Source: Nocardiopsis sp. CNT312 (GTDB lineage: Bacteria; Actinomycetota; Actinomycetes; Streptosporangiales; Streptosporangiaceae). From it: 64,000 nucleotides of DNA. The stretch spans positions 62,187 through 126,186 of the forward strand of contig NZ_AZXF01000017.1 of assembly GCF_000515115.1 (NCBI RefSeq). Reading direction: 5' to 3'. This document shows, in pieces, positions 23,079-64,000 of the stretch; position 1 is the first letter of the stretch, and each line of letters starts with the position of its first letter. The notes beneath the pieces are model-generated. The model saw only the letters and a program-made list of their open reading frames with translations. It was not told where the DNA came from and did not search any database. The translations under genes and the position numbers were made by a program.

Positions 23079-24569
23079 CTACAGGTGTTCGGCGGCCCAC
23101 TCGCGCAGGGCGGCGGTCGCCTCCTCCTTGGACATCGGGCCGTTCTCCAGGCGCAGTTCCAGCAGGAAGCGGTAGGCCTTGCCGACGACGGGTCCCGGCT
23201 TGACGGCCAGGACCTCCTGGATCTCGTTGCCGTCCAGGTCCGGACGGATGCGGTCGAGCTCCTCCTGCTCGGCGAGCTCGGCGATCCGGCGCTCGATGTC
23301 GTCGTAGGAGCGCGCCAGGGCCGCGGCCTTGCGGCGATTGCGGGTGGTGCAGTCGGCGCGGGTGAGGATGTGCAGCCACTCCAGCAGGTCCCCGGCGTCA
23401 CGCGCGTACCGGCGCACGGCGGAGTCGGTCCACTCCCCCTTGCCGTAGCCGTGAAAGCGCAGGTGCAGGGAGACGAGCGTGGCGACGTCGGAGACCACGT
23501 CCTTGGGAAACCGCAGCGCGGCCAGGCGCTTGCGCGTCATGGACGCGCCCACGACCTCGTGATGGTGGAAGGTCACCCGGTTTCCAGACTCGAAGGCCCG
23601 CGTCTTGGGCTTGCCGATGTCGTGCAGCAGGGCGGCCAGACGCAGCACCAGGTCGGGCCCGTGCCCGCGCTCGCGCTCCAGGTCGACGGCCTGGTCAAGG
23701 ACGGTGAGGGAGTGCTCGTAGACATCCTTGTGCCGGTGGTGCTCGTCGATCTCCAACTGCATCCTGGGAACCTCAGGCAGGACGTGGCCGGCGATCCCCA
23801 GTTCGACCATCAGCTCGATGCCGCGACGCGGGTTCGGGCTGAGCATGAGCTTGGTGAGCTCGTCCCTGATCCGCTCGGCGGAGACGATGGCGAGCCGGTC
23901 CGCCATGTTCCGGGCCGCCTCGGCCACCTCGGGTGCCAGCGCGAAGCCCAACTGCGCGGCGAAGCGGACGGCCCGCATGATGCGCAGCGGATCGTCGTCG
24001 AAGGAGTCCTCGGGGCGGCCGGGGGTCCGCAGCACCTTGGCCTTGAGATCGGCCAGCCCGCCGAACGGGTCGATGAACTCCACCTGGGGCAGCCGTACGG
24101 CCATCGCGTTGACGGTGAAGTCCCGGCGCAGCAGGTCGTCCTCGATATCGGTGCCGTAGGCAACCTCGGGCTTACGGGACTTGGGCGAGTAGGACTCGCT
24201 GCGGTAGGTGGTGACCTCCAGCTGCAGGCCCCGCTTGCGCAGGCCCACGGTGCCGAAGTCGATGCCCACCGTCCACACCGAGTCGGCCCAGCCGTCGACG
24301 ATCTCCAGGACCCGCTGCGGCACGGCGTCGGTGGTCAGGTCGATGTCGGCGGACTCCCGGCCCAAGAGCGCGTCGCGGACCGGGCCACCCACGAGGGCGA
24401 GTTGCCGGCCATGGGAGGAGAAAAGGTCACCGAGCTGACCCGAGACGGGCTGGGCGGAGTCGACCAACGCGGTGACCGCCGCCCGTTGCACCCCGGTCAG
24501 CGGGTCCCGCGGGACGTGCTTCGGGCGCTCTGCGGTGGTGTTCTCACTCGGAAACTCTGTGTTCGGCAC
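23079..24569 (-). CDS. cca: CCA tRNA nucleotidyltransferase (with HD domain)
   Basis: A 496-aa enzyme that adds or repairs the 3' CCA of tRNAs, as needed here because the tRNA-Ser gene does not encode CCA. The class II nucleotidyltransferase head is clear: LALVGGPVRDALLG and SADIDLTTDA, then RRDFTVNAMA, then the neck DDPLRIMRAVRFAAQLGF. An HD domain follows, with LLHDIGKP and VTFHHHEVVG. This is the usual actinobacterial Cca/PcnB form. The GTG at 24569 gives a typical N-terminus; an upstream in-frame extension lacks support. Divergent from DUF6049. Confidence 0.95.
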   Translation of the reverse strand: MPNTEFPSENTTAERPKHVPRDPLTGVQRAAVTALVDSAQPVSGQLGDLFSSHGRQLALVGGPVRDALLGRESADIDLTTDAVPQRVLEIVDGWADSVWTVGIDFGTVGLRKRGLQLEVTTYRSESYSPKSRKPEVAYGTDIEDDLLRRDFTVNAMAVRLPQVEFIDPFGGLADLKAKVLRTPGRPEDSFDDDPLRIMRAVRFAAQLGFALAPEVAEAARNMADRLAIVSAERIRDELTKLMLSPNPRRGIELMVELGIAGHVLPEVPRMQLEIDEHHRHKDVYEHSLTVLDQAVDLERERGHGPDLVLRLAALLHDIGKPKTRAFESGNRVTFHHHEVVGASMTRKRLAALRFPKDVVSDVATLVSLHLRFHGYGKGEWTDSAVRRYARDAGDLLEWLHILTRADCTTRNRRKAAALARSYDDIERRIAELAEQEELDRIRPDLDGNEIQEVLAVKPGPVVGKAYRFLLELRLENGPMSKEEATAALREWAAEHL

Positions 24570-24802
24570 ACCACGCAGGTTAGGCGATCTTTCACGGGCG
24601 CACCGCCGTACCGCGTACTCAGCGAGGACCGTCGGCACACCGCGTGAACCGGTGGAGAAGGTATCTTCGAGTGGAGTCGTGGGACGTACAGCCCATCTCG
24701 CGTCCACCCGTTCCGTCGTGTGCGCCGTGCGGGCGCTCTGGCCCCATCCGCCCCCGCTCCTCCGGTGGCCACCCGGACCCGAACCAGGAGACCGGTCAAG
24801 CG

Positions 24803-27274
24803 TTGCGTCGATTTGCCTCCGCGGCCGCGGTCATGGCCATGACCGCAGGGCTGCTGCCGATACCGGCCACGCTCCCACCCGTGGCCGCCGACCCCGCAGA
24901 GGGCGACTCCGTCGAGCCGCTCGTCGTCGAGCGGCTCACTCCGGACGCACTCGACGAGGGCAGCACGCTGGAGATCTCCGGAACGGTGACCAACACCATG
25001 CCGGAGAACGCCGACGATGTCACCGTCCGTATGCGCTACTCGCGGCACTCGTTCCGCAACCGCGACGAGCTCTCCGACTTCGCCTCCGGCACCGGCTGGC
25101 AGCCCGACGCGCCCGGACCCGAGGAACCGGTGGCCGAGGTCCTCGCACCGGACGCCTCCGAGGGGTACGAGATCCGTGTCCCCGTCGAGGACCTGGACCT
25201 GTCCGGCTTCGGCGTGTACCCGCTGGTGGTCGAGGCCGTGGACGGAAACGGGGACAGGCTGGGCGCCCAGTACACCTTCCTGCCCTACGCGGGCGACGAC
25301 GAGGACGTCCCCTCCGTGGACATCGCGTGGGTGTGGCCGCTCATGGACGGGCCCCACCGCGCCGACGACGACACCTTCCTCACCGGCGACCTGTCCGCTT
25401 CCGTGGCCGCCGACGGGCGACTCGGCCGCCTGCTCGCGGCGGGGGCTCAGTCACCGCTCTCCTTCGACCCCGGCGACGAAGACCTGGTGGAGCTCCTCGG
25501 CCTCGACGAGGAACCCGGTGAGGCCTCCGACACCGCCACCGCGCAACCCGCGGAGTCCACGCCCTCACCCGAGGGGACCGGGCCGGAGGGAACGGAGACC
25601 GACGCCGCCGACGGCGGGGCCGAGGAGACCGGGGAGGCAGACGCCGGGGCGGAGGAATCGGACGAGCCCAAGGAAGTCCCGGTCACCTGGGCGGTCGACC
25701 CCGCCACGCTCGACGACATCGTGCGTCTGGCGAGCGGAAGCCACGACGTGCTGAGCGACCCCCTCGCGCTCTCGGAGGGCGCCGACCCCGGACGGGAGGA
25801 ATCGCCCCCCGACACGGCCGCCCAGGTGTGGCTGCGCGAGGCACGGGAGGCGCTGGCCTCCGACACGGTGGTGGCCACCCCCTACGCCTCCCCCGACCTG
25901 GCCGCTCTGCTGCGCAACGACATGGGCGGCAGCGCCCGCGCCTCGGTCGCGGTCGGACGGGAGGCGGTCCCGCGCGCGCTGGACAAGGCGGCGGACGGCT
26001 CGTTCGCGCTCCCGGCGAACGGCCTCATGGACCAGGACGTGTACGAGTTCCTCGCCACGAGCGGGGCCCACCGGTTCCTGCTGTCGGAGTCGGCCAAGCC
26101 CACTGCCTCCTGGCTGTCGTCCACACCCACCGCGCAGGCGCCGCTGGACCCGGTCGAGGGCGGCCCCGAGGAGGAGCCCTACGCCCTGGTGGCCGACGCG
26201 GGGCTGGCCGAGGTGCTGGCCATGCCCTCGCGCGAACCGGGGGAGGCCGTGCTCGCCCTCCAGCGCTTCGCGGCCGAGACCGCGATGATCGCCGGGGAGA
26301 ACGCCGCCGAGGAGCGCGTCGTCGTCGCCTACCCCGGCGCCGTCTGGGACCCCGGCACCGACATGGCGGAAGGGGTGCTGTCGGCCACCCTGTCCCTGCC
26401 CTGGCTGGAGGCGGAACCGCTCGACTCCGTCGAGCCGGCCCCCGCCGAGGAGCGTGAGACCACCCGGCGGGCCCTCACCTACCCAGAGGGCACCTACTCC
26501 GAGGAGCTCACCTCCACCTACCTGAGCCAGGTGAGCGACGTCATCCGCGACGTGCGCCTGTTCAACAGCGTCCTCGTCGGCGGCAGCGACCCGTTCCGCC
26601 CGGCGATCCTGCGCCTGGAGTCGGTGCACTGGCGCGACCGGGAAACCCTCGCGGGGGTGACCAGGTCACTGCTCTCCGACACTGTGGAGAGCGACATCGA
26701 CGACGTGCGCATCATCTCCGGAGAACCGGTCACGCTGGCCAGCAGCACGGGTACCACCGGCATCCTCGTCGCCAACGACCTGGAGGACGAGGCCGTCCAC
26801 ATCCACCTGTCGCTGTACTCGGAGAACTCCGAACGGCTGAGCGTCGGCGAGTACACACAGGACTTCGAGATCGCCCCCGGGGCCAAGACCACGGTCTACG
26901 TCCCGCTCTCCGCCCGGATCAACGGCCGCACGGAACTGCACGCCAGCCTCCAGAACGCCGCGGGCGAGCCGATCACCACACAGGACACGGTGATCCCGGT
27001 CAACGCCACGGGGCTGGGCACTCAGGCCCTGGCCATCAGCGCGGTGGGCGCGCTGATCCTGGTCATCGCGCTCGCGCCCCGCGCACTGCGCAAGTGGACG
27101 CGCGACCGGGCCAAGCGCGCACGGGACGACGGTCCGGCCGACACCGGGGACGCACCCGGGACGGCCGGACCCGACACGACCGAGGAGACGTCGCCGGAGA
27201 CGAACTCCACGCCCGACACGGACGAGGGCCCGGAGGGGGAGACCGCTCCGGGGCCCCGACGAAAGGAATCCTGA
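24803..27274 (+). CDS. DUF6049 family envelope protein
   Basis: An 823-aa protein. The TTG at 24803, with AGGAG upstream, gives RRFASAAAVMAMTAGLLPIPA as a signal peptide; the ATG at 24833 would truncate it. The mature part is extracytoplasmic: beta-rich N-terminal domain (LEISGTVTNTMPENADDVTVRMRYS), an acidic Glu/Thr/Pro linker (about residues 235-295), and a central domain with VPVTWAVDPATLDDI. One membrane helix lies near the C-terminus (about 740-765, LAISAVGALILVIALAPRAL). A charged cytosolic tail follows. The family is found between cca and murJ in actinobacteria; its role is undefined, probably cell-wall related. MurJ starts 7 bases later, so they are coupled. Confidence 0.8.
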   Translation: MRRFASAAAVMAMTAGLLPIPATLPPVAADPAEGDSVEPLVVERLTPDALDEGSTLEISGTVTNTMPENADDVTVRMRYSRHSFRNRDELSDFASGTGWQPDAPGPEEPVAEVLAPDASEGYEIRVPVEDLDLSGFGVYPLVVEAVDGNGDRLGAQYTFLPYAGDDEDVPSVDIAWVWPLMDGPHRADDDTFLTGDLSASVAADGRLGRLLAAGAQSPLSFDPGDEDLVELLGLDEEPGEASDTATAQPAESTPSPEGTGPEGTETDAADGGAEETGEADAGAEESDEPKEVPVTWAVDPATLDDIVRLASGSHDVLSDPLALSEGADPGREESPPDTAAQVWLREAREALASDTVVATPYASPDLAALLRNDMGGSARASVAVGREAVPRALDKAADGSFALPANGLMDQDVYEFLATSGAHRFLLSESAKPTASWLSSTPTAQAPLDPVEGGPEEEPYALVADAGLAEVLAMPSREPGEAVLALQRFAAETAMIAGENAAEERVVVAYPGAVWDPGTDMAEGVLSATLSLPWLEAEPLDSVEPAPAEERETTRRALTYPEGTYSEELTSTYLSQVSDVIRDVRLFNSVLVGGSDPFRPAILRLESVHWRDRETLAGVTRSLLSDTVESDIDDVRIISGEPVTLASSTGTTGILVANDLEDEAVHIHLSLYSENSERLSVGEYTQDFEIAPGAKTTVYVPLSARINGRTELHASLQNAAGEPITTQDTVIPVNATGLGTQALAISAVGALILVIALAPRALRKWTRDRAKRARDDGPADTGDAPGTAGPDTTEETSPETNSTPDTDEGPEGETAPGPRRKES

Positions 27275-57908: not shown

Positions 57909-57982
57909 GGGCGTATAGCTCAGTCGGTTAGAGCGCATCCCTGATAAGGATGAGGCCCCAGGTTCAAGTCCTGGTACGCCCA
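57909..57982 (+). tRNA. tRNA-Ile (GAT anticodon)
   Basis: 74 nt. Acceptor GGGCGTA/TACGCCC with discriminator A at 57982; D-arm AGCTCAGTCGGTTAGAGC; anticodon loop CTGATAA giving GAT; T-arm GGTTCAAGTCC. No CCA is encoded. A tRNA-Ile downstream of gyrA-DUF3566 is usual in actinobacteria, though here a ThDP gene separates them. Confidence 0.97.
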
Positions 57983-57999
57983 CCCAGATTTTCCTGGTC

Positions 58000-58753: not shown

Positions 58754-59005
58754 CTATGCCGTCTCGGTAGCGGTCGGCTCTCTCCGTTCCGGGAGGGGCA
58801 CGCCCAGAAGCTTCAAGAGGTCGACCGTGACCACTCGGTAGGTCGTGCCGTAGCGCAGCAGCCGACAGGGGAACTCGCCGCGCCTGGCGAGTTCGTAGGC
58901 CGTCGTCCGCCCCATGTGCAGAGCACGGGCCGCCGTCATCAGGTCCACGGCGGCAGGCAGTTCGTACAGCTCGTGGATGGTGAAGGCTCTGCGATCCTCA
59001 GCCAC
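58754..59005 (-). CDS. Small helix-turn-helix protein (excisionase/MerR-like)
   Basis: An 83-aa protein. The GTG at 59005 follows GGGAGGA; an ATG at 59017 is the alternative. The core VDLMTAARALHMGRTTAYELARRGEFPCRLLRYGTTYRVVTVDLLKLLGV is a winged HTH of the excisionase (HTH_17) type: -T--A-AL-MGR-TAY-LAR-GE-P----R-G--YRV. Such proteins are found in integrative elements as directionality factors and also as stand-alone regulators. No integrase is visible nearby, but the tRNA-Ile 770 bases away is a common integration target. Confidence 0.8.
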   Translation of the reverse strand: MAEDRRAFTIHELYELPAAVDLMTAARALHMGRTTAYELARRGEFPCRLLRYGTTYRVVTVDLLKLLGVPLPERREPTATETA

Positions 59006-59078
59006 TGGTCCTCCCATGTGCCGGTTTCCTCGTCAAGGAGGAGAAGCACCTGGAACTGCGGAAAGTGACAGGGGCACG

Positions 59079-60614: not shown

Positions 60615-60640
60615 GGAGTATTCCCGAGCGTGAATACTCC
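60615..60640. promoter_or_regulatory. Inverted repeat upstream of the regulatory operon (candidate operator)
   Basis: GGAGTATTC (60615-60623) and GAATACTCC (60632-60640) form a 9-bp perfect inverted repeat with an 8-nt spacer, about 75 bases before the 64-aa gene. The right arm includes CGTGAATACTCC. A related CGTGAATTCTCG lies at 60675-60686 next to GATAAT (60686-60691, a possible -10). Confidence 0.6.
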
Positions 60641-60712: not shown

Positions 60713-60907
60713 ATGGCACTTCGGAAACTTTCCGGTGATTGCAACCGGAACGACTGCCCAGGTGTGTTCTCCACCGGAACGGGAACCGTGATCGTCCAGG
60801 GACCGCTGTTGAAGGCCACCGAAGAACTCACCCTCTCCACCGGTGAGGTGGCCGTCGAGATCCCCGCCCACCTCATCGAGGAGGCCGCCCGTGCGCTTGG
60901 AAGGTGA
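60713..60907 (+). CDS. 64-aa Cys-containing protein, first gene of the regulatory operon
   Basis: It starts at an ATG with AAAGGATG upstream. The N-terminus ALRKLSGDCNRNDCPGVFSTG has a C-x4-C pair. Then come TVIVQGPLLKATEELTLSTGEVAVEIPAHLIEEAARALG. Short proteins with this layout occur beside DUF6879 and XRE genes in actinomycetes; I know no function. It overlaps the DUF6879 start by 17 bases, so the genes are coupled. A redox or metal role for the Cys pair is possible but unproven. Confidence 0.65.
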   Translation: MALRKLSGDCNRNDCPGVFSTGTGTVIVQGPLLKATEELTLSTGEVAVEIPAHLIEEAARALGR

Positions 60908-61415: not shown

Positions 61416-62288
61416 TTGACCCTTGAGCCCGAGAACGCCGACCGGCAGCGCGGCGAACTGGCCGACGCTCTGCGCCGGCTCCGCCGCTCTGCCGGGATGA
61501 CCGGTGCGGGCCTGGCCGCCCGCGCCGGTATGAGCCAGGCCAAGATCAGCAAGATCGAGAACAACCGCATCCGCCCTTCCCATCTGGACGTCGAACGCAT
61601 CCTCACCGCCCTCGGCGTCCCCTTGGAAGGACAGGACGGGGTGCGCCTGCTGGAGCTGGCGCGGGTGACCAACTCCGACTACCAGGGGTTCCGCACCGCG
61701 CTGCAACGCGGTTTGGGGGAGCTGCAACGCGACTTGGCCGCCATTGAGGGCGCGGCAACCACGATCCGCTACTTCCTGCCGTGCATGATCACCGGCCTGT
61801 TGCAGACCCCCGAATACGCGCGGCAGAGTCTGGCGCACCCGCTGGTGAACCGCGGTGCGGAGTGGCACACGGCCCTGGCCCGCCGACTGGAACGCCAGCA
61901 GGCCCTCTACCAGCCGGGACGACGGTTCGTGTTCGTGCTGACCGAGGCAGCGCTGCGCTGGCCGCTGTGCCCGCCCGCGGTCATGGCGTTGCAGATGGAC
62001 CGCCTCGCGTCCTTGAGTGAGCTGGCCGGGGTGGACATCCGGATCGTCCCCGCCCACCCTCCAGTCCCGAGCGGGCCGCTCAACGGGTTCACGCTCTACG
62101 ATGACCGGCTCGTCACCGTTGAGGTGTTCACCGGTGAGCTGGCGCTGCGCGACCCCAAGGACATCGCCTACAGCGAAGAGATCTTCGACTTCTACCACGG
62201 CCGATCCCTCGCGCATGACGATGCTCGCTCGTTTCTCGGCCGATTCGCCCAGGAATATCGAGAACGAGCGAAAACCGACATTCCGTAG
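61416..62288 (+). CDS. XRE family regulator with DUF5753 domain
   Basis: A 290-aa protein from a TTG that directly follows the DUF6879 stop. Residues 8-65 are the helix-turn-helix: GELADALRRLRRSAGMTGAGLAARAGMSQAKISKIENNRIRPSHLDVERILTAL. Residues 100-280 are DUF5753: IRYFLPCMITGLLQTPEYARQSL, RRLERQQALYQPGRRFVFVLTEAALRW, GVDIRIVPAHPP and FTLYDDRLVTVEVFTGELALRDP. It should bind DNA and sense a ligand or partner through DUF5753. It precedes the lanthipeptide promoter by about 30 bases and is the obvious candidate controller of that locus. Confidence 0.88.
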   Translation: MTLEPENADRQRGELADALRRLRRSAGMTGAGLAARAGMSQAKISKIENNRIRPSHLDVERILTALGVPLEGQDGVRLLELARVTNSDYQGFRTALQRGLGELQRDLAAIEGAATTIRYFLPCMITGLLQTPEYARQSLAHPLVNRGAEWHTALARRLERQQALYQPGRRFVFVLTEAALRWPLCPPAVMALQMDRLASLSELAGVDIRIVPAHPPVPSGPLNGFTLYDDRLVTVEVFTGELALRDPKDIAYSEEIFDFYHGRSLAHDDARSFLGRFAQEYRERAKTDIP

Positions 62289-62346
62289 CGTGAATTTATT
62301 CCCACCCGTGAAAGTCCTTCAAACGACTTTCCGGTGTGCCTAGTCT
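62284..62346 (+). promoter_or_regulatory. Promoter/operator region of the lanthipeptide gene
   Basis: TTCAAA (about 62318-62323) and TAGTCT (62341-62346) are spaced by 17 bases as possible -35/-10. GAAAGTC/GACTTTC (62310-62316 with 62325-62331) is an inverted repeat overlapping the -35. AGCGTGAATTTATTCCC at about 62287-62303 resembles the CGTGAAT elements before 60713. Confidence 0.5.
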
Positions 62347-62382: not shown

Positions 62383-62556
62383 ATGCGCTTGGCGCAGGAA
62401 TCCCAGCAGGACACGCAGACCCACGCCCCTTCGTCACCCTTCGTTCTCGACATCCGCCTGATCGAGACCAGCGACACCACACCACTGATCAACCTCACCG
62501 ACGACGGCTGCGGGACGACCTGCCCCAGCACCTGTGTCACGAGCGTGTCGGACTGA
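62383..62556 (+). CDS. FxLD-type lanthipeptide precursor
   Basis: A 57-aa peptide from an ATG after GGAAAGAG. The leader contains PSSPFVLDIRLIETSD, with the FxLD box FVLD at residues 20-23. The core is TDDGCGTTCPSTCVTSVSD, residues 39-57: three Cys (43, 47, 51) and eight Ser/Thr. It fits the actinobacterial FxLD lanthipeptide family (F-x-LD-R-IE leader, LTDDGCG-TC core). Ser/Thr would be dehydrated by LanB and joined to Cys by LanC, giving up to three thioether rings. FxLD clusters often also encode a methyltransferase, which would lie beyond the window. Confidence 0.9.
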   Translation: MRLAQESQQDTQTHAPSSPFVLDIRLIETSDTTPLINLTDDGCGTTCPSTCVTSVSD

Positions 62557-62626
62557 ACAGTCTCGGGAAAGCGCATGGATTCGAGCGCCGACCCGGACAC
62601 GCACCAGGCCGCACTGTCGATCCGTG

Positions 62627-62659
62627 GTGGTCGGCACCGTCCTCTTCGGTGCCGACCAC
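62627..62659 (+). terminator. Attenuator-like hairpin between precursor and lanB
   Basis: A perfect 13-bp stem (62627-62639 with 62647-62659), 7-nt loop, then CCTCTTGGGAGG, which includes the lanB ribosome site. Such hairpins let the precursor be made in excess over the enzymes. Confidence 0.75.
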
Positions 62660-62677
62660 CCTCTTGGGAGGACCACC

Positions 62678-64000
62678 ATGGCTCTGCGCTGGCAGGTGAG
62701 GGGCACTCCCGTCATCCGAGCGCCCATCACGGACGGTTCGCCGGTGTCCTGGTGGCCGAACCTGCCTGGGAACGATGTCGACGAGTGGGTGCACTGGCTC
62801 GGATGCGTGTGGGCGGCATCCGAACTGGCCGAGGCGATCCGGCACGCCTCACCGGACCTGGCCGCCGGCGTGGACGACCTCCGATCCCGAGCCCCGGACG
62901 GGATCCGAGTGCGGCGCGCCCGCAAAGTGACCGCCGCTGTTGTGCGCTACGTGCTGCGGGCCCGGCACCGGGCCAACCCCGTTCGGCCTCTTTGCGGGCA
63001 TCGCCCCGGCGGCCTTCGCTGACGCGGCGTCGGTGGCATGGGGGCACGATCACCATGCTGTGGCCTCCCCCAGCGGGGAGTGGATCACCGAGATCACCGA
63101 TCACCTCGTGGATCTCCCCCAGGTGCGCCAGCGGCTGTTCCTGGCCGCCAACCACACCGCCTGGCGCACACAGGACCATCTCGTGGTGCCCCAGCACGCG
63201 CGCCCCGCCCCACCCCATCCTCGGGCGGCCACGGCCGAGGTAGAGATCCGTCTGACCGGTGCTGTCCGACTCGTCCTGGATGCCGCCCAAAGGCCCGTGC
63301 CGTGGGCCACACTGGCCGCGAAGCTCACCGCCGAGTACCCGGACGAACCCGCCCAGAGCGCCGAGAACCTGCTCACCCAGTTGATCCGGGCACGGGCTTT
63401 GCTGACGAGCCTGTCCCCCACGTCGGTCGAGACCGACCCGTTGGCCTACCTGGCCAGAGCCCTGGACGGCATGGTCGAAGTCTCACCGCCGGTCCCTCTC
63501 CTCGATGGCACCCGCTCAGTGGTACGGATACGTCACCGTCACGGCAGTGGCCCGGCTGTGCGGGCGGAGTCCATGAAGGCGGCGCGGCACCTGTGCGACA
63601 CCGGGCGGACGGGGATCGACGTACGCCTCGATGCCACCGTCTCCCTGCCGGCCGAAGTGGTGTACACGGCCGAGAAGGCCGCGCACATGCTCACCGTCCT
63701 GTCCGCGTATCCAGAGGGTATTCCCGCCTGGCGCGGGTATCGGGACCGGTTCGCGTACCGGTACGGCACCGATCCGGTGCCTGTGGCCGAGGCCGTGCAC
63801 CCGTCCACCGGCCTGGGGTTTCCTCACAGCTACACCTCTACGGGAAGCGAAGCACCCGCAGCGGCCCTCAGCGTGCGCGACCGGTGGCTGATGGGCCAGG
63901 CCCAGGACGCGGCGCTGACGGGGCGAAGGGAGGTCCGGATCGAGGAACTGCTGGCCGCCCAGGAAACCGTGTACTCCTCGGCCCCGCCCGAGAACACGGA
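62678..64000 (+). pseudogene. Lantibiotic dehydratase (LanB), frameshifted; continues past the window
   Basis: The ATG at 62678 follows GGGAGG. The first 100 codons read LRWQVRGTPVIRAPI...VRRARKVTAAVVRYVLRARHRA. At about 62975 one extra base shifts the frame; the correct continuation TPFGLFAGIAPAAF, a hallmark of LanB N-termini (R-TPFG-FAG), is read one frame over. It then stays open to 64000: ETDPLAYLARALDGMVEV, PAVRAESMKAARHLCDTGR, EGIPAWRGYRDRFAYRYGTD, STGLGFPHSYTSTG, DAALTGRREVRIEELL. LanB transfers glutamate from Glu-tRNA to Ser/Thr of the precursor and eliminates it. A single indel in an otherwise clean gene could be a sequencing error, a recent mutation or a slippage site. Confidence 0.85.

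Follow-up and report, generated by a model that had tools for sequence, protein, structure and literature searches.

The coi cluster of Streptomyces coelicolor A3(2) (CoiA1, CoiB, CoiC, CoiSA and CoiH), which was characterised in E. coli (PMC9486935, PMC9011353), is the closest described counterpart of the locus studied here. CoiA1 was reported with rings Thr43-Cys47, Thr50-Cys55 and Thr57-Cys51, CoiB is a full-length LanB with its own anti-lyase, and CoiSA is a fusion of a syn-lyase and a PIMT-like methyltransferase (PMC9486935). According to the published roles, a Lys replaces Tyr and a hydrophobic residue replaces NisB Arg826 in the CoiSA syn-type lyase, which is also described as being without the catalytic His of anti-lyases (PMC9486935). 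In the same report the CoiSA lyase could act on each of the three Thr. CoiC required Dhb50 to be (Z) to close the ring on it, and cyclisation was incomplete if the syn-lyase had produced every Dhb. In the olv system of Streptomyces olivaceus (OlvA, OlvSA) a PIMT homologue likewise acts on a core Asp to give aspartimide and isoaspartate (PMC13001092), and olv as presented in PMC9486935 has a canonical LanB and no fused syn-lyase, unlike the locus below. The spt system (SapT), with its split LanB SptBa + SptBb, likewise places glutamylation and syn-elimination on separate proteins, but it is described with a precursor, SptBa, SptBb and a cyclase only and no methyltransferase fusion (PMC9011353, PMC9890492). 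Families I 1-4 of Walker et al. 2020 comprise actinobacterial class I precursors whose core Asp is conserved and which go with a PF01135 methyltransferase, in some cases as a fusion with an elimination domain. The sections of that survey considered here treat both split LanBs and elimination-domain fusions and make no mention of the combination seen in this locus (PMC7268733). Where published surveys describe methyltransferase-fused syn-lyases, they do so alongside full-length dehydratases.

The window, that is the whole stretch of 64,000 nucleotides of Nocardiopsis sp. CNT312 that was analysed, ends within lanB, and the locus was read onward in a stretch running past the window end (L002, where a coordinate equals the window position minus 58813). 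In our assessment 62383-62556 is likely to encode the precursor of a class I (FxLD) cluster of the coi type, in whose Nocardiopsis relatives the cluster itself carries a syn-lyase only, and which is probably inactive or in decay in this strain. The features of the locus are the following.

60619-60636 (no strand assigned): inverted repeat TATTC-N8-GAATA, putative operator, before the regulator genes
60713-60907 (+): DUF397-like protein, 64 aa; counterpart in this position in 9/9 Nocardiopsis loci, at 62-94% identity
60876-61415 (+): DUF6879 protein (PF21806, E 1.8e-50); in 9/9 loci, one of them frame-broken
61416-62288 (+): XRE/DUF5753 regulator (PF13560, PF19054); in 9/9 loci
62297-62314 (+): second putative operator, TATTC-N8-GAAAG, before lanA
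62383-62556 (+): lanA, FxLD (coi-type) lanthipeptide precursor (TIGR04363; orthologues)
62575-62615 (+): lanA2 relict, 5' end of a second precursor gene, from the alignment with Nocardiopsis sp. CNR-923
62626-62660 (+): hairpin between lanA and lanB, 14-bp perfect stem, RNAfold -30.2 kcal/mol
62678-63022 (+): lanB 5' piece, 114 aa, ending early at the frame break; PF04738 positions 3-55
62976-64000 (+), running on past the window end as far as L002:6025 (window-equivalent 64838): 3' piece of lanB, in a different frame; PF04738 positions 52-649, E 4.5e-152
L002:6022-7281, beyond the window end: lanC (PF05147)
L002:9292-10380: CoiH-like gene without family match, conserved, directly behind the lyase-methyltransferase gene

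The 57-aa product of lanA, MRLAQESQQDTQTHAPSSPFVLDIRLIETSDTTPLINLTDDGCGTTCPSTCVTSVSD, scored 48.8 bits against the FxLD family model TIGR04363 (curated cut-off 30; E 5.1e-13). Its FVLD box was present as predicted, and the count of three Cys and eight Ser/Thr within the predicted core region TDDGCGTTCPSTCVTSVSD was confirmed. In nine Nocardiopsis relatives a precursor was encoded at the same place, with 22 invariant columns across the ten sequences, and together with the TIGR04363 match this ruled out a chance open reading frame. Judged by its sequence, 62383-62556 is thus a genuine precursor gene of a known family. The original prediction had placed it beyond usual annotation, but NCBI already has a model for such genes, TIGR04363. 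As a precursor the product is ordinary: 1305 lanthipeptide clusters with a PIMT-like enzyme have been listed, most of them with TxDGC (PMC10787088). Four weak matches to solved structures, all of armadillo-repeat proteins (E 0.007-0.017), were taken as chance. In its own 4.68-Mb genome lanA had no close match besides itself. A second, distant FxLD precursor, with the core region CNTGDGCGNTCQGTASACNSYVSDPV, lies on another contig (98596-98715 of contig C9 of G000; entries L004 and L049). In that second FxLD cluster LanB is full-type, and the methyltransferase and the lyase are encoded separately.

LanC, an elimination domain and the FxLD-system methyltransferase, which the prediction had proposed to look for on the extended contig, were all encoded beyond the window; since LanC and an elimination domain are there, the objection that neither would be met within 10 kb falls away. 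With PF04738 and PF05147, the LanB and LanC genes of a class I lanthipeptide cluster are present, lanB being frame-broken in this strain. The predicted LanB gene does follow the precursor, but it lies in two pieces in different frames and is not intact in this assembly. A 673-aa fusion protein beyond the window has an N-terminal lyase domain (TIGR03891, 151 bits against a cut-off of 48; PF14028) with the syn-type residues K47 and A92, and its C-terminal half is an FxLD-system methyltransferase (TIGR04364, 424 bits against a cut-off of 320; PF01135, E 3.6e-48). This fusion agrees with coi. The profile search found no PF14028 domain in lanB, however, so that the full-length LanB with its own anti-lyase, as published for coi, is not encoded here: window-type LanB ends after the glutamylation domain. 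From domain and residue signatures, the one lyase of this cluster is syn-type and methyltransferase-fused, and its LanB is without an elimination domain (anti) of its own. The fused lyase domain alone gave no match among solved structures at E <= 1.

The gene behind the fusion gene was likened to coiH by position alone and was found in 29/30 loci compared (L080 is cut off). Its protein was predicted as a TPR-like helical repeat (pLDDT 91), for which Foldseek returned no match at E <= 0.001. The best VIA-align rows were Rap/NprR peptide sensors (Z ~13, rmsd 5.2-6.4, 246-256 aligned), a level that the tool itself rates uninformative for helical repeats; the protein is possibly peptide-binding.

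To place this architecture, a wide sample was assembled from a contig scan and overlapping searches of 200, 394 and 341 genomes, with part of the hits fetched. It held 103 entries, eight of which (L081, L124, L127, L129, L152, L162, L171, L177) were dropped as broken, cut off or without a single fused match, leaving 95 that could be scored: 63 with full LanB and 32 whose LanB is without its lyase domain (GL-less). The window locus was assigned manually to the GL-less group, since the frame break disrupts its lanB near the 5' end and nowhere else. Some loci had entered the sample from two sources; after merging at 97% LanB identity, 86 distinct coi-like loci remained, 55 full and 31 GL-less. 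Within the fetched stretches one lyase place was found in 32/32 GL-less entries, and two in 62/63 full ones, the remaining one having three. LanB measured 711-763 aa in the eight unbroken Nocardiopsis cases against 1027-1130 aa in 21/21 non-Nocardiopsis loci, and it matched PF04738 alone in 7/7 Nocardiopsis proteins and PF04738 + PF14028 in 3/3 others.

With the syn/anti residue positions mapped onto NisB through the PDB alignment, the fused domains had Lys at K47 in 86/86 loci and Ala, Val or Thr at the NisB-R826 position in 85/86. LanB's own lyase domain had Tyr or Phe at the former position in 53/55 and Arg at the latter in 53/55. A fused domain that is an anti-lyase by its residues was ruled out for the GL-less loci, the NisB-R826 position being Ala, Val or Thr in 31/31. 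A His pair near the end of the fused domain was conserved (HH in most rows), and by the alignment one of the two may correspond to the anti-lyase base NisB H961.

In a quick LanB tree with long branches, L121 among them, the GL-less loci formed two clades, one of 10 rows (Nocardiopsis, G178) and one of 21 rows that is sister to the full-length L131/L132. A more careful 27-row tree united nine Nocardiopsis rows in one clade with support 100/100. The well-supported branches of the LanB tree would force two changes of architecture, most simply two losses. L057 (NYMS01000040.1), labelled Glycomyces fuscus TRM 49117, falls in the same genus as the window strain (G012) and had its LanB inside the Nocardiopsis clade, and its label may be wrong. 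A literature search of open-access texts without supplements found no description of GL-less coi-like clusters, and this sub-type of the coi pathway is, as far as searched, undescribed.

Twenty FxLD loci were compared for gene order. The order DUF397-like, DUF6879, XRE/DUF5753, lanA, lanB, lanC, lyase-methyltransferase and CoiH-like was identical in 9/9 orthologous Nocardiopsis loci (L033-L041), and the DUF397-like/DUF6879/XRE block upstream sets the locus apart from coi. The 64-aa protein of 60713-60907 had no Pfam or NCBIfam match, and we take the name DUF397-like by analogy. Beyond Nocardiopsis, weaker DUF6879 and XRE homologues adjoin the cluster in an Actinomadura (L060), and in two Frankia (L066, L082) they stand divergent beside it with a DUF397-like gene; the remaining 18 non-Nocardiopsis loci compared gave no DUF6879 match. 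The 18-bp motif TATTC-N8-GAAWR occurred at just two places in the 64-kb window and at none in shuffles, a count that alone is circular, since the pattern was drawn from these sites. The block aatttattc at the site before lanA was identical in 10/10 loci, and a block like 60619-60636 stands upstream of the same gene in the aligned relatives. From this we infer a putative XRE operator.

The hairpin at 62626-62660 had counterparts in 5/10 Nocardiopsis loci including the window (-25.1 to -32.8 kcal/mol). An attenuator had been predicted after lanA; the stem-loop is present, but no T-run or terminator-like site of an intrinsic terminator was found with it, and the attenuator is unproven.

Outside the cluster, a tRNA-Ile(gat) after the gyrA region (57909-57984) is followed by a small excisionase-like HTH gene (58754-59017, -; PF12728 26.5 bits, just below the cut-off of 27), and a Replic_Relax gene (PF13814; L002:15252-16169) lies behind the lan cluster. 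The cluster may be on or beside an element integrated at tRNA-Ile.

The core was compared with CoiA1 solely through the published positions T43/C47/T50/C51/C55/T57. At an offset of four, all of these have counterparts in the window core (T39, C43, T46, C47, C51, T53), pairing as T39-C43, T46-C51 and T53-C47, and the same spacing was seen in Streptomyces precursors. Three rings, T39-C43, T46-C51 and C47-T53, are expected by this analogy, the two C-terminal ones overlapping, which speaks against the three separate rings first supposed. Since the core lines up with that of the characterised CoiA1, three dehydrations are expected instead of the loss of up to eight waters. The original prediction overlooked that the acidic start, TDDGC, represents TxDGC, a known methyltransferase motif. 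The Asp of TxDGC is methylated by PIMT-like enzymes and then gives aspartimide and isoaspartate (PMC10787088, PMC13001092). The two marks of a lanthimiditide, a TxDGC core motif and a PIMT homologue, are present as TDDGC and PF01135, and aspartimide/isoaspartate formation is predicted at D41.

Residue 46 distinguished the architectures in part. It was Ser only in 29 and Thr in two (the window and L172) of the 31 GL-less loci; among the 55 full loci it was Thr only in 28, both in nine and Ser only in six, and 12 had no recognised precursor. Nocardiopsis main precursors had Ser in 9/11, and CoiA1 has Thr. Ser yields dehydroalanine, which has no E/Z forms. Ser46 also occurs in full-length lineages (L060; L120, L161 and L163; L148 and L149; second precursors of Streptomyces), and a strict tie between Ser46 and loss of the anti-lyase was ruled out by these loci and by the Thr46 GL-less ones. 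Because the tree holds two architecture changes and several full-length lineages have Ser46, the association is suggestive, not proof. The window has Thr46 where the nearest relative CNR-923 and 9/10 other Nocardiopsis loci of the same architecture have Ser; the exception is the more distant GL-less locus L172 (G026:C65), whose core TDDGCGTTCEGACCTSGSD has Thr46 and a fourth Cys.

Within 62974-62980 a one-base shift breaks the lanB frame, which continues there in 9/9 relatives; a programmed frameshift is not favoured, as none of the nine shifts there. The break falls in the glutamylation motif YxxRxxxRxTPFG, and the first piece stops after 114 aa. On our own reading of the spacing, this motif would correspond to NisB Y80/R83/R87/T89, the roles of which are given in PMC4341554; it also aligns with MibB. 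The MAG locus L039/L081 has a different lanB break further down. A second precursor lies between lanA and lanB in 2/9 relatives (CNR-923 and Nocardiopsis sp. N85); in the window only the first 41 nt of this lanA2 are left, and ~110 bp of the CNR-923 sequence are absent after 62615. The lanB break, the lanA2 deletion and Thr46 together suggest relaxed constraint. Against CNR-923, dN/dS was 0.14/0.43 for the lanB 3' piece, 0.09/0.29 for the lyase-methyltransferase and 0.09/0.16 for lanA, and with dN below dS any decay would be recent.

It is possible, if rather doubtful, that the cluster works and that the break in lanB arose in sequencing or assembly, a reading that overlaps with the one we prefer. 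The lanB 3' piece runs for 620 codons without a stop and is well conserved with dN < dS, the frames of lanC and the lyase-methyltransferase are open in this strain, and the break rests on one assembly. Error-prone drafts may also be indicated by CNR-923, the nearest relative (L041/L053), which shows a single-base frame break in lanC and two in DUF6879, either by parallel decay or from a weak draft. However, the genome is rated 99.99% complete, and 32/33 syntenic window genes (39.6 kb aligned; lowest gene coverage 0.61) had no match in a second frame. The doubtful gene, 24331-27190, has its first 94 residues in another frame against G029, and from 24650 onward 95% of the G012 copy aligns in a single frame. 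Moreover, a ~110-bp deletion of lanA2 is no base-calling error, and core residue 46 is unusual as well. With lanB broken at the glutamylation motif and lanA2 deleted, we favour the reading that the pathway here is probably inactive or decaying and without product, unless the break is an assembly error. The new compound proposed earlier is hence plausible for the relatives and doubtful for this strain with its frame-broken lanB.

By analogy with the characterised systems, T39, S/T46 and T53 would be glutamylated in the intact relatives by a LanB that consists of the glutamylation domain alone. Since the cluster retains no anti-lyase domain, elimination at each of these sites would fall to the syn-lyase half of the fusion protein. 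LanC would form the rings T39-C43, S/T46-C51 and C47-T53, and the methyltransferase half would then methylate D41 of TxDGC, giving aspartimide and isoaspartate. As CoiC was incomplete on all-syn Dhb, LanC here would have to differ. Elimination cannot be taken as confined to the cluster for want of anything else in the genome, as other PF14028 domains were found elsewhere in 10/10 Nocardiopsis genomes tested, which makes elimination in trans possible. We nevertheless regard it as unlikely that GL-less clusters rely in part on an anti-lyase encoded elsewhere, with T53 the sole site left to the fused domain as it is in coi: those domains lie on other contigs or (G010, G021) >900 kb distant, the loss of the lyase domain is common to whole clades, and the CoiSA lyase can handle all three sites. 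Very improbable is a real lanB break made good in trans by the LanB of the second FxLD cluster. That cluster does encode an FxLD precursor of its own as well as two PF14028 domains, of which one lies in a frame of 1046 aa, but the leaders of the two precursors differ strongly (FALDVRVVVATHPVGKLMCNT vs FVLDIRLIETSDTTPLINLT) and its LanB is ~35% identical to that of the window locus.

For the GL-less clusters as a whole, a turn to syn-only elimination in at least two actinobacterial lineages, the window locus being in one, is plausible at somewhat less than even odds: the LanB anti-lyase would have been lost, the fused syn-lyase would make every dehydro residue, LanC would by now accept (E)-Dhb in the first ring, and the donor of the second ring would have become mostly Ser. 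If this is true, the products would have a MeLan stereochemistry not yet seen in the family, possibly L-allo-L, a form called not yet reported in PMC9011353.

The window strain serves as a warning that a good-looking precursor is not evidence of a product. For the family, MeLan stereochemistry depends on which lyase acts on a given Thr, and the cyclase and both lyases of coi are interdependent (PMC9486935). GL-less clusters would be natural versions of the CoiB-H994A experiment, in which dehydration was complete and cyclisation was not (PMC9486935). The questions they raise are how LanC copes with (E)-Dhb and whether a single bifunctional lyase-methyltransferase can sustain the pathway.
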